NCBI RefSeq assembly: GCF_022201045.2 | Contig: NC_068563.1 | Location: forward strand, 3,596,001-3,660,000 | Reading direction: 5' to 3' | Source of the DNA: Citrus sinensis | Lineage: Eukaryota > Streptophyta > Magnoliopsida > Sapindales > Rutaceae | DNA length: 64,000 bases | Part shown: piece after piece, positions 49,438 to 55,284 of the stretch | How positions within the stretch are numbered: position 1 is the stretch's first letter | Layout: each line of letters begins with the position of its first letter | Made by a program: the position numbers and the translations under genes | The notes under the pieces: model-generated | Told to the model about the DNA's origin: nothing | The model's database searches: none | What the model saw: the letters and a program-made list of their open reading frames with translations, nothing else

Positions 49438-49450
49438 AAGTGATGTTATC
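49438..49450. repeat. LINE target-site duplication, left copy
   Basis: AAGTGATGTTATC, identical to 55272-55284. In the pseudogene this is one stretch of exon 3, and the intact gene has the related CAATGTTATCC here (about 59668-59680). Confidence 0.93.
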
Positions 49451-49534
49451 TTTTTTTTTTTTTGAAAAGAAAGTATGCCTTTCATAGAATTAACTTGAGC
49501 ACAAGTACAAGATGTCTGTTGGAATTTCATTCAA

Positions 49535-52500
49535 TCATATTACAAGTTCCTGCTTTTGCAAAGCTAATTTGGCTAACTCATGAGCTGTGCCATTATAGTT
49601 CCTAGATATGTGCTGAGCTTTAAAGTTCTGGAAATTCTTCTTTTTTTCCAGAATTTCGGCTATTAACCAGTAGATTTCAACCATACTGCTTGTCTTCATG
49701 TTTACTAGCTCAACTACTTCCAGCGAGTCAGATTCGAAAAATCCAGCAGTAACACCAGCTCTTAAAGCTACATGTAAGCCCCACTCCATGGCTGCAGCTT
49801 CAGCCATTGCCACATTCCCAGAAAACTTAGCAGCAGCTTTGCAAATTCCTTCTGAATTTCTAATCACCACCCCTAAGCCTATCACTTGATTCTCAGCATC
49901 CACATTTATTTTTTCCCAGCCCTTTGGTGGGGGGCTCCATTGATTCTGCTCCCCTGCCTTCTGACTTGCAACATATGTCCTCTCAGGTTGTTTAACTCTC
50001 TTAAATGATTCTACCATAGATTCTGCCCACGCAACTGCTCTGATTGGATTTTCTTTTTTGCCCTCAAACAACCATTTATTTCTTGCATTCCAAATAACCT
50101 ACAGAAGAGCAGCCACTGAAGCTCCGTCCCTTTGAGCTTGCTGCTGGGGCAAAGATTGCAGCAACCCAATTACATCCTAGTTTTGCTCTCTTTGAGAGCC
50201 ACCTGTCAATTGAGAGCCATTCCAAATCTTCCTTGCCATTTTGCAATCCTGCAAAGCATGCGAAATGGACTCCATTTTGCAGCGACATATTTGGCAAGTT
50301 GGTTCCTGTAAAACTTTATGCTTTCATAGATTTTCCGCTGTTGGCAGTAGGTCATGAGCCGCTCTCCACAAGAAGATTTTTATCTTTTCTGGTATTTCAA
50401 GCTTTCAAATCATATTCCATTGGAAATGGGTGGAGCAACTTGGGTGATCTGGGAACTTTATTTGCATAGCCACTTGGTAGCCACTCTTGACAGAATAGGT
50501 ATCTCTCTTGTCGTAGTGCCATATTAGTTGATCTTCCTTTGGCCTTCTCGGTAGCTGGATTTGAGAAATAGTTGCTACATCTTCTGTTGTGAAATGTTCC
50601 AAAAGTAAGTTTTCCTTCCAATTTTGTTCATTATCAATTAGCTCTGCCACTGTAATGTTGGCCATCATCGTTGGGGCTGAAATTGGTCTAAAGGTTGATG
50701 GTCTGGGAATCCAAATGCTTTTATACACCTTCACATTCTTCCCATCTCCAATTCTCCACCTAGACCCTTTTTGAATCACTTGCCTCCCCCACAAAACACT
50801 TCTCCAAATGAATGATGGTTTTAACCCCATATTTGCATCCATAAAGCTTATATGTTTAAAATACATAGCTTTCAACACTCTTGCTACCAGCGAGTTTGGA
50901 AACTGAAGAATTCTCCAACCTTGCTTCGCCACAAGAGCTTGATTAAAGCTTGAAAGATCTTTAAATCCCAACCTACCTCTGACTTTGGCGTGGCTTATTT
51001 TCTCCCACCTCACCCAATGGATGCTCTTCTTCTCTTGTTTAGTTCCCTACCAGAACCTAGCCACTACTCTTTGGATATCCTCACATAACCCTATGAGAAT
51101 TTTGAAAACATTCATAGCGTATGATGGGACTGCTTGTGCAACAACTTTAATCAAAACCTCCTTACCTCCACTTGAGAAATACTTATGCTGCCAACTACCA
51201 ATTTTGTTCAACACTCTGAGCTTGGTTTCCTTGAAAAAACTCTTATGCTTTCTCCATATCATTGAAGGTAGCCTTAAGTACTTTTCATGCCGAGACACCA
51301 CTTACATCTGAAAGATGTCTTTAATGGCTGAAATCTGTTCATTCTTAGTGCTCCCGCTGAAGAACATAAAAGATTTTTCAAAATTGAAAATTTGTCCGGA
51401 TGCTTTGCCATAGCACTCGAATAAGGCTTTTAAGTGTTTGCAGTCCTCCACTGTTGCTCTAGTAAAAATAAGGCTGTCACCCGCAAATAAGAGGTGGGAG
51501 ATCTTTGTATCTTTGCCGAAACGAATTCCATGGATAAACTTTTGGTGTTCTGCCTGCTCTAAGAGGCTTGAGAAAGCCTCAGCGCACAAAATAAAGAGGT
51601 AAGGGGATAGAGGGCACCCTTATCTGAGTCCCCTTTGGGGATGAATTACCCCCGTGGTTGTTCCATTAATAACAACAGAAAAAGAAACCATAGTGATACA
51701 ATACATAATTAAGTCAACTCATTTACTAAAGAAGCCTAACTTTAGCATTGTGTGCTTAAAAAAATCCCACTTCACTCTATCGTAAGCCTTACTAATGTCC
51801 AATTTCAAAGCCACCAGCCCGTGTTTTTTCCCTTTACTATGTCTAATTTTATGCAAGCATTCATAGCCGACAATGATGTTATCAGTAATTAAACGATTGG
51901 GAATGAATGCACTTTGAGTTGGGGATATGACTTGGTGGAGGATATGCTTTAGTCTATTTGCAATTGTTTTGGTTATAATCCTATAAATGACATTACGCAG
52001 GCTTATAGGTCTAAACTCTGTTACCCTCTGTGGTTTTTGAGTTTTCGGAATCAATACAATGTGCATGTGATTAAGTGGAGAGATTGTACCTCTATCATTT
52101 AGAATGTAGAGGCAAGTAGAGATAGCACATCGCTTTACTGAGCCCTAATGCTTTTGAAAGAAGGCTGCTGGCAGTCCATCCGGTCCCGGAGCTTTTGTTG
52201 GGCACATTTGGGAAAGTGATGTTGCTATTTCTTCCTCTATGAAAAGCTTGTCCAGATGGCTGTTCATTTTCGAGTCCACATTCGGTTTCAATCCTTCAAG
52301 GGCAGCCTATATTTGCATTTCTGTCGGACTGAAAGTTGCAAAAAGGTCTTCGAAATATTCACCGAACGCCCTCTCGATCTCTTCTTTATCTTCCATCCAT
52401 TCTTCTTGCCGATTTAGGATTTCCTTAATTCGATTCTTCATTTTTTTTCTGGAGGAGGCCTTTAAGTGAAAAAATTTCATGTTTTTGTCTCCCTCCTTCA

Positions 52501-53460
52501 ACCAATTTGCTCGAGATCTCTGCTTCCAATACACTTTCTCATCTAACAGCAGCCTCTCAATCTGTCCATCCGTGCTTTTAATCTCATTTACTTTGTCATG
52601 TTGTTTAAATTGATACTTCAAATTTGAAAGTTTTTCCTTCAGCCGTTTCAGCTTCTCTTCCCGCCATCAAATTCTTTCTTACTCCAAATCTGCAGTTGTG
52701 CCATTGAATTATTGGTAGCCCTCTTGAAGGTTTCAACTGGATCTTCTTCACCCCAGCTTCTACACTCCATCTATTCTCGTCTCACTATTCTTTTGCATTC
52801 TTCATATGGACTCCACATGTCCTCATAGTGGAGTCTTTGATAGGACTTCTTTTGGTGCCAATTAAACCGAGTCTTTTCTTGTATCTCTAACATAATATGG
52901 TTGTGGTCTGAGCACCAAGAATTCAGGTTTGTAACCGTAAGCTTATAAGAGCTTTGCTCCCAATCCTTACTCCCTAAGAACCTATCAAGCATTCCTTCAA
53001 TCAAATAGGGTCCATATATTTTATTAGACCACATAAAGGGGTAGCCCTTGCAGCCTAAATCTACCAAATTGCAGTCCTTCACCGCCTCCCAGCCAGCCTC
53101 CTTAGCAACGTCCAGGTATACCGTTTTTGCATTGATTTCGGATGACCGTATATTCCAATGCATCTCCAAATATTCCCTTTTACCCCATAAATAACAGCTT
53201 CTATATGATGGTTGCTGTGCGATACAATAATGACATCAATTTCATCGTTCCATAGCAAAGCCAAACTGCCCCCCATCCTTATTCTTCCCACCTTAAGGCA
53301 GTTCTCAAAACCTAGAATTTTCCCCATATTTGTCACTGCACAGGCTTCATCTTTGTTTCACAAACAAAAAGAATCTGAGGCTTGTGCTCTCGGAGAATGT
53401 CTTTTAGAGCTAGGAACGTCTGGGTATTCCCCAAACCCCGGACATTCCAACTTATGATTT
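49535..53460 (-). pseudogene. LINE ORF2 (endonuclease, reverse transcriptase, RNase H), degraded
   Basis: The frame is broken repeatedly. Endonuclease: starts KIISWNVRGLGN at about 53455, continues through 53079-53336 and 52771-53169 with CSDHNHIMLEI. Reverse transcriptase: 51719-52066 contains IPKTQKPQRVTEFRPISL and LKLDISKAYDRV; 51302-51589 holds the catalytic box as FAGD instead of the family's FADD, which would abolish activity. The zf-RVT-type region lies at 50405-51013. RNase H (RVT_3) at 49535-50071 keeps NVDA, a Glu in AEAAAMEWGL, ESDSLEVV and the RNYNGTAHELA motif. Confidence 0.9.
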
Positions 53461-54269: not shown

Positions 54270-54863
54270 CTACATCTCCTCCTTTAGTTGGCCCTTATAC
54301 ATCGCACACTCTCTGTATTGATGTCCAATGAATCCACAGCAGAAACAATATTCTGGAAGCTTTTTATAAATCACCCCAACTGGAATTTTTCCTCCATCTT
54401 CTTGCTGAATCTTGAGGATCTTTTTTAGTTGCTTGGTAATATCTATTGATATTCTGACCCGCACATATTCACCGAAACAATCCCCGATTGCATCCGTTGC
54501 CACGTCTTCTACTTTTCCAATCTTGGCACCAATTTCCTGGATTGTGCTAGTATCCATACACATCAGTGGCTTATTATGCAGTTGTACCCAAAATGAAACA
54601 TGTGAAAAATGTTGTTCTGTGAGATTGCCAATACCACTCGGCTCTTGGAGTACAATAAGAGCACGATCAAAGTGCCATGATCCTCTTGTTAACACTCTTC
54701 GTTTATCTTCTTCTAAGGAAAACTTAAACATAAAGATTTTGTTTCGCAAACTTTCAACTTTGACTACCCCCACTGGTCTCCAGGCTTGTAGTAAAGCTGT
54801 TTGGATACCTTCATGACTGATACTTCTTGTAGTAAGGATTTTGCCCATCAAGCAACCTGCCAC
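54270..54863 (-). pseudogene. LINE ORF1 (DUF4283 with CCHC zinc knuckle)
   Basis: This open stretch of about 197 codons is the nucleic-acid-binding protein of plant L1 elements. It shows the DUF4283 core (SLEEDKRRVLTRGSWHFDRA) and ends with a zinc knuckle, CFCCGFIGHQYREC. The start codon is not clear and the part between this frame and ORF2 (53460-54270) is degraded, so I treat it as non-functional. Confidence 0.85.
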
Positions 54864-55271
54864 AATCTAAGCTCATTTTTTCCTTCATGTTACCCCCAAA
54901 GATAATTTTGTCTTCTTACTCGTATGCATACACTTCTTAATTAATTCGTCTGTTTCCATTCTTTAAAGGAGGCTGTAAAATCCTTTAATGCAATGTAACC
55001 ACCTTGCCAGCTTCGTTTCTTTCCTGCTCTTAACTCTTCACTCCTGTTTCAGCTTTCTAACACTCATGATCGATAAATACTCACACCTACCCTTTAGCCC
55101 TAATTTAAGACTAAGCTCTCTGAAGAAAAAAGAAAAGAAAGAGAAAAAATTAAAATGAAAATTACGCCCAACTAGTGGGCAGTTTTCTGGACCATAAGGA
55201 TCCAAAATTTGCTTCCATTCAGTGTTCTCTCATTCAGAGAGAAAACACTCTCGAGGGAAGAGTTTTTTGAA

Positions 55272-55284
55272 AAGTGATGTTATC
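55272..55284. repeat. LINE target-site duplication, right copy
   Basis: AAGTGATGTTATC, identical to 49438-49450 and continuing directly into the rest of pseudogene exon 3 (CGAGAGGCTCAAAAGG). Confidence 0.93.

Follow-up and report, generated by a model that had tools for sequence, protein, structure and literature searches.

A 64,000-nucleotide stretch of the Citrus sinensis genome (contig NC_068563.1, here C8, positions 3596001-3660000; hereafter the window) carries two tandem copies of a peroxidase gene. One of them, P2, is intact, while the other, P1, is a pseudogene whose exon 3 is split by an L1-type long interspersed nuclear element (LINE). With a probability that we put at roughly 0.83, the tandem duplicate P1 lost selection first and the LINE integrated later by target-primed reverse transcription. 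The LINE has an estimated age of 0.034 neutral substitutions per site, compared with an unconstrained time d of 0.100 for P1, or of 0.074, with a narrow margin, in a stricter codon set. As the LINE is younger than this unconstrained time, it most likely landed in a copy that was already free of constraint. The comparison of the two ages had been proposed in a preliminary description of the window.

The LINE and its insertion site

Genome searches covered 299.7 Mb in 11 contigs. The search with the LINE listed 71 places, the best 40 of 666 candidates being scored; among the matches listed, the nearest copies are L031 on contig C2 (91-92% alike) and L032 on contig C6 (83-89%, with an internal gap). 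The insert and its borders comprise the following features.

49438-49450, no strand, left copy of the target-site duplication, AAGTGATGTTATC (exact string search)
49451-55271, minus strand (sense), L1-type LINE of 5821 bp with an A13 tail at 49451-49463 (tail, genome search, Pfam, junction alignment)
49535-50098, minus strand, RNase H-like piece of the LINE, RVT_3, E 1.4e-18 (Pfam)
51302-51619, minus strand, reverse transcriptase piece, RVT_1, E 2.4e-6, under the curated cut-off (Pfam)
51719-52144, minus strand, reverse transcriptase piece, RVT_1, E 7.9e-17 (Pfam)
53085-53095, minus strand, site of a private 109-bp deletion, where L031 has its endonuclease region (copy alignment)
54270-54866, minus strand, open reading frame 1 (ORF1) piece, DUF4283 E 3.5e-20 and zf-CCHC_4 E 1.4e-8 (Pfam)
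55263-55271, minus strand, nine extra 5' bases, TTCAAAAAA (comparison with L031 and L032)
55272-55284, no strand, right copy of the target-site duplication, AAGTGATGTTATC (exact string search)

Exact copies of AAGTGATGTTATC occur twice in the window, at the left and right ends of the insert. When up to two mismatches were allowed, 8 places were found in comparison to a shuffle mean of 2.96, and 1 of 100 shuffles reached 8; this control covers the matches at up to two mismatches. T13 follows directly after the left copy, at 49451-49463. After removal of 49451-55284 by script, the flanks aligned with P2 exon 3, in register and unbroken across the junction. In a self-comparison of the window, 49367-49450 matched P2 at 59597-59669 and 55277-55665 matched P2 at 59662-60079, so that the two matches adjoin with an 8-base overlap. 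The preliminary description had claimed a perfect 13-bp duplication, a T13 tail of a minus-strand LINE after its left copy, an insertion inside exon 3 of a peroxidase gene on the same strand and an uninterrupted paralogue next door, and it had proposed the alignment of the P1 flanks to P2. All of this was borne out: LINE and P1 share the minus strand, and the alignment places the repeats at homologous exon positions, where the exon halves meet.

The domains, the A tail and the target duplication identify the insert as an L1-type LINE. Ten pieces of it were compared with Pfam; four gave matches and six did not, two from the endonuclease region among them. No Pfam match was found in the pieces 52771-53235, 53079-53357 and 53236-53357 of the endonuclease region, into which the 109-bp deletion falls. 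In L031 the same region matches Exo_endo_phos (E 1.1e-6, plus E 8.2e-5 under the cut-off). The stretch 51302-51619 reads FAGD in the window LINE and FADD in L031, the latter being what we take as the motif of that reverse transcriptase site. Relative to both L031 and L032, the losses of the window LINE measure 13, 109, 1 and 12 bases and its gains 9, 1, 1, 1 and 2. The 109 bp, lost at about position 53091, are present in both copies; two of the single extra bases fall where L032 is missing and are not assignable to the window copy. The earlier label "full-length" holds for the 5' start, which reaches the start of the nearest copies and lies about 10 bases before the matches of these two begin, but not for the body of the element, with its private deletion and broken reading frames. 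Position, duplication, tail and domains of the insert are read directly from the sequence, while the mechanism of transposition is deduced from the scars that it left.

The intact and the interrupted peroxidase copy

58782-60775, minus strand, P2, intact class III peroxidase gene of 326 amino acids (exon model, Pfam, solved-structure match)

P2 has four exons (60563-60775, 59886-60077, 59606-59771 and 58782-59188); their phases are consistent and the frame is open, without a stop. Its product matches PF00141 (E 1.9e-82), and the best match among solved structures is Peroxidase N (1qgj, E 9.2e-97, residues 33-326); judged by these similarities, P2 is a class III peroxidase. A genome search with P2 exon 4 returned 81 matches, all 84 of 84 candidates being scored. 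Apart from P2 itself, the top-scoring match was P3 on contig C7 (61%), an open reading of 329 residues, with P1 next by score. In the alignment with P3, P2 is a few residues shorter in the stretch that links the signal region to the first helix.

The self-comparison showed 47380-47951, 49367-49450, 55277-55665, 57019-57122 and 57131-57282 to be collinear with P2 on one strand. Similarity was also found outside the genes, between 57441-57563 and 61087-61209 and between 58061-58410 and 61889-62210. As these matches run past the gene ends, the tandem duplication extends beyond P1 and P2. Alignment to P2 gave the five exon remnants of P1; the three repeats in its introns come from the genome search, and the first of them also from the self-comparison.

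47477-47882, minus strand, exon 4 remnant with frameshifts of +4, +4, +1 and -1 and a 12-bp in-frame gap
48137-48522, no strand, repeat in intron 3 resembling a miniature inverted-repeat transposable element (MITE), genome copies mostly 70-80% alike
49174-49366, no strand, palindromic MITE-like repeat in intron 3, genome copies about 74-82% alike
49381-49450, minus strand, 3' part of exon 3, including the left target copy
55272-55387, minus strand, 5' part of exon 3, including the right target copy, with a +4 frameshift
55468-55663, minus strand, exon 2 remnant with a +4 frameshift and GCD changed to GCY
56380-56512, no strand, palindromic MITE-like repeat in intron 1, genome copies mostly 75-86% alike
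57062-57142, minus strand, exon 1 remnant with ATG changed to ATA, about 130 nt lost, HDCF changed to HDSF and the donor GT changed to GA

P1 is a pseudogene, both by these disabling changes and by its loss of purifying selection. Six indels that shift the frame (+4, +4, +4, +4, +1 and -1) lie in exons 2-4, and the exon 3 donor has five extra bases. The altered Asp (GCD to GCY) is presumably a calcium binder and the altered Cys (HDCF to HDSF) presumably forms a disulfide. The label MITE-like was given from shape and copy number, and none of the three intron repeats had a match in P2 in the self-comparison. We also observed that four of the six frameshifting indels (47480-55665) are 4-base insertions, at least one of them a clean tandem copy (ATTAATTA); fill-in of staggered breaks could be their source.

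Within the 13-bp target, P1 and P2 differ at 4 bases. P1 equals P3 at 3 of these, which probably places the change on the P2 side. The fourth difference is private to P1, changes Ala to Ser at codon 174 and is present in both duplication copies, and therefore predates the insertion; it is the terminal target base, beside a filler T, and microhomology could be an alternative explanation. At the age estimated below, the chance that a 13-bp pair stays perfect is about 0.41.

Age of the LINE

In a tree of eight LINE copies, the terminal branch of the window LINE measured 0.042. Over 1034 codons in three copies, private changes at codon positions 1, 2 and 3 amounted to 34, 36 and 32 in the window LINE, 28, 31 and 31 in L031, and 40, 54 and 105 in L032. 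Two of eleven pieces gave no usable codons for this set and, as L032 is without most of the ORF1 piece, no more than 34 came from there. The branch omegas of the window LINE (0.95) and L031 (0.88) look neutral throughout, and both copies therefore probably inserted at about the time when the two split. The resulting age is 0.034 neutral substitutions per site (bootstrap limits 0.024-0.042), with values of 0.032-0.035 for assumed source omegas of 0.05-0.3. Among the private changes of the window LINE, 81 of 150 are G>A or C>T, an excess expected of methylated DNA, and a LINE this rich in transitions appears older, not younger, than its true age.

Release of P1 from selection

The full codon set comprised 260 of 326 codons; dropped were 53 codons of exon 1 that precede its well-aligned part, 12 codons at gaps and one P1 stop. 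Four of the 12 reflect a gap of 12 bases where P1 exon 2 ends, which comes from where the region was cut and not from a deletion; it is in frame and outside the frameshift counts. Differences at codon positions 1, 2 and 3 numbered 29, 30 and 36 between P1 and P2, compared with 63, 45 and 143 between P2 and P3.

These codons were fitted with a model of three branches, in which P1 evolves first at the functional omega and then at omega 1 for a time d. Under a clock (P1 and P2 of equal length), d was 0.100 of a branch of 0.108 (bootstrap 0.061-0.12). Fixing d at 0.042, the upper age limit of the LINE, cost 2dlnL 16.05 with and 17.34 without the clock, and 0 of 60 clock bootstraps fell at or below that value. 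Constraint throughout (d=0) was rejected both in the full set (2dlnL 52) and in a strict set (2dlnL 24) of those 155 of the 260 codons that lie more than about four codons from any indel.

Two checks made outside the codon model, on private changes polarised by P3 and on indels, pointed in the same direction. P1 carries 16 private transversions in 780 positions in comparison to 27 in 4362 positions of the LINE branch (Fisher p 3e-4), and 48/780 private changes of all kinds in comparison to 150/4362 (p 4e-4). By codon position, the P1-private changes number 16, 21 and 11 of 260 each. These figures are minima, as a change counts only where P2 and P3 agree; the loss is greatest at third positions, P3 being close to saturation there. 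Over the 737 aligned bp of exons 2-4 in P1, the rate of the LINE would predict 1.2-1.35 indels of any length, whereas six frameshifting ones were found (P 0.002-0.003); exon 1 indels are outside this count. The figure of 1.35 derives from 8 indels private to the LINE, four losses and four gains besides the nine 5' bases; two of the four gains are the unassignable ones, and including them errs on the side of caution.

Order of events

Several results weigh against an early release of P1. A model with a free omega on each of the P1, P2 and P3 branches was rejected, as the P1 branch reached an implausible 12, which we attribute to P3 being near saturation; the two-segment model with one functional omega was used instead. 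The strict set gave a d of 0.074 (0.036-0.11), at which 0.042 is rejected marginally (2dlnL 3.69) and reached or undercut by 7 of 100 bootstraps, yet a d of 0.03 costs 2dlnL 7.58; this set has the same direction as the full one and alone is not decisive at the upper age limit of the LINE. P1-private changes at third positions (11/260, 4.2%) are little above the LINE density (150/4362, 3.4%), so that the excess in P1 rests on positions 1 and 2. All comparisons of P1 with the LINE assume that exons and LINE evolve neutrally at similar rates.

These results leave some room, though we consider it an unlikely course, for a P1 that still worked until the LINE inactivated it, the remaining damage coming later. 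A split coding exon is by itself expected to abolish the protein, the lower bound of the strict set (0.036) overlaps the upper age of the LINE (0.042), and the third-position density of P1 about equals that of the LINE. The full codon set rejects this order (2dlnL 16-17), however, the transversion and frameshift densities of P1 exceed those of the LINE, and the bias from its transitions (81/150) raises the apparent age of the LINE rather than lowering it.

It is less probable still that P1 was an expressed variant under relaxed or altered selection until the LINE ended it. The codon model is unable to separate relaxed selection on a still expressed gene from gene death, which also counts against our preferred order; P1 has nonetheless lost its start codon and a donor and gained six frameshifts, although none of these is singly datable. 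A misjoin that placed the LINE in the peroxidase copy can practically be dismissed: one assembly is the only source, but the perfect duplication, the correctly placed A tail and the in-register exon halves are unlike a misjoin, and at 91-92% to L031 and 83-89% to L032 the LINE is no misplaced identical copy.

The order that we prefer, in which P1 was released before the LINE arrived, draws on the codon model and on the densities of transversions and indels; the disablements and substitution counts beneath it are observed, and the LINE alone is dated among the disablements. P1 and P2, both class III peroxidase genes, would have arisen by tandem duplication, and P2 was kept intact. P1 would have passed early out of purifying selection and suffered the loss of its start, the exon 1 deletion, the loss of a donor, frameshifts and MITE-like insertions. 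The LINE would later have entered exon 3 by target-primed reverse transcription, sense-parallel to the gene, with integration copying the 13 bp target and leaving the A tail beside the left copy, and would afterwards have decayed neutrally.

The 5' junction of the LINE

Target duplications were scanned in 14 LINE copies. Exact duplications of at least 13 bases were found for the window LINE, L033 (more distantly related; low complexity), L039 and L040; in the remaining copies they were imperfect, doubtful or not found. The nine extra bases TTCAAAAAA are absent from L031 and L032 and identical to the body/tail boundary of the window LINE itself. Together with the last three target bases they form a 12-base match to that boundary. 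Counting both strands, the window has 3 occurrences of this string, and the two ends of the LINE account for two of them. Such a junction might stem from an end-to-end template jump that left TTCAAAAAA, a tentative idea that is plausible but that we regard as rather unlikely. On reaching the 5' end of the LINE RNA, the reverse transcriptase would have continued on another LINE RNA, starting from its 3' end, and produced TTCAAAAAA before second-strand synthesis. Both template jumps and microhomology have already been described for the 5' junctions of LINEs (PMC2881922).

As a pointer to a source element, the junction TTCAAAAAACTCTTCC was uninformative, with 36 genome places at up to one mismatch in comparison to 31 for the reversed control; exact genome matches numbered 2, one of them the window LINE. 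Filler between the target duplication and the LINE start was also seen in L032 (57 bases, imperfect duplication) and L033 (56 bases, L033:966-1021). A 36-base part of the L033 filler recurs at three other genome places (100, 97 and 97%), within a segment of about 265 bp common to them. One of the three, L048, lies directly upstream of a peroxidase gene; L047, 91% alike to L048, lies near a peroxidase exon from the search with P2 exon 4, and the third is L049. For the L032 filler, the genome search returned L032 itself only. On the 5' side of L031 (C2:24177500-24185500), about 850-900 bp separate an imperfect target duplication from the LINE start; with inverted ends, seen by eye, they resemble a DNA transposon.

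Other features of the window

Three tandem units of about 7-9 kb each, 73-91% alike, occupy 2059-22605. Pieces of them look phytocyanin-like by eye; two pieces of the first tandem repeat had no Pfam match at E 0.01. A diverged tandem repeat with a main offset of 117 bases lies at 28598-29244 (69% over 568 columns, shorter pieces 74-82%), and a tRNA-Ile (AAT) gene at 62537-62612 on the minus strand.

Relation to known systems

In flowering plants, LINEs are almost exclusively of the L1 clade, and (A)n ends are tabulated for 224 of 233 flowering-plant L1 families, according to PMC3747384. The window LINE resembles this clade in its ORF1 with DUF4283 and a zinc knuckle, and in RVT_1, RNase H, A tail and target duplication, the endonuclease being seen in its nearest copy, L031; it shows no difference of kind, the private 109-bp deletion and the nine extra 5' bases being peculiar to this copy. 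P2 resembles class III plant peroxidases in PF00141, in its similarity to Peroxidase N (1qgj) and in its four exons, whereas P1 departs from them as a pseudogene.

Duplicate pseudogenes with transposons are a known kind, in which one tandem copy remains intact and the other gathers insertions and frameshifts. P2 and P1 fit this pattern; they differ from it in that the insertion in P1 is exonic, has a perfect duplication and involves a LINE with near copies, which make its age comparable with that of the pseudogene. By title and the start of the abstract, none of the open-licence PubMed Central matches listed describes the insertion in P1; surveys of peroxidase families and LINE papers of a general kind were among them. 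The insertion in P1 adds one more case to a well-known kind of event, ordinary genome decay without a new mechanism. Its value is that of a clean worked case in which gene death and transposon arrival are timed separately, which is possible because the insertion is exonic, its duplication perfect, the tandem neighbour intact and two LINE copies near. The obvious story, that the LINE killed the gene, is here the less likely one.

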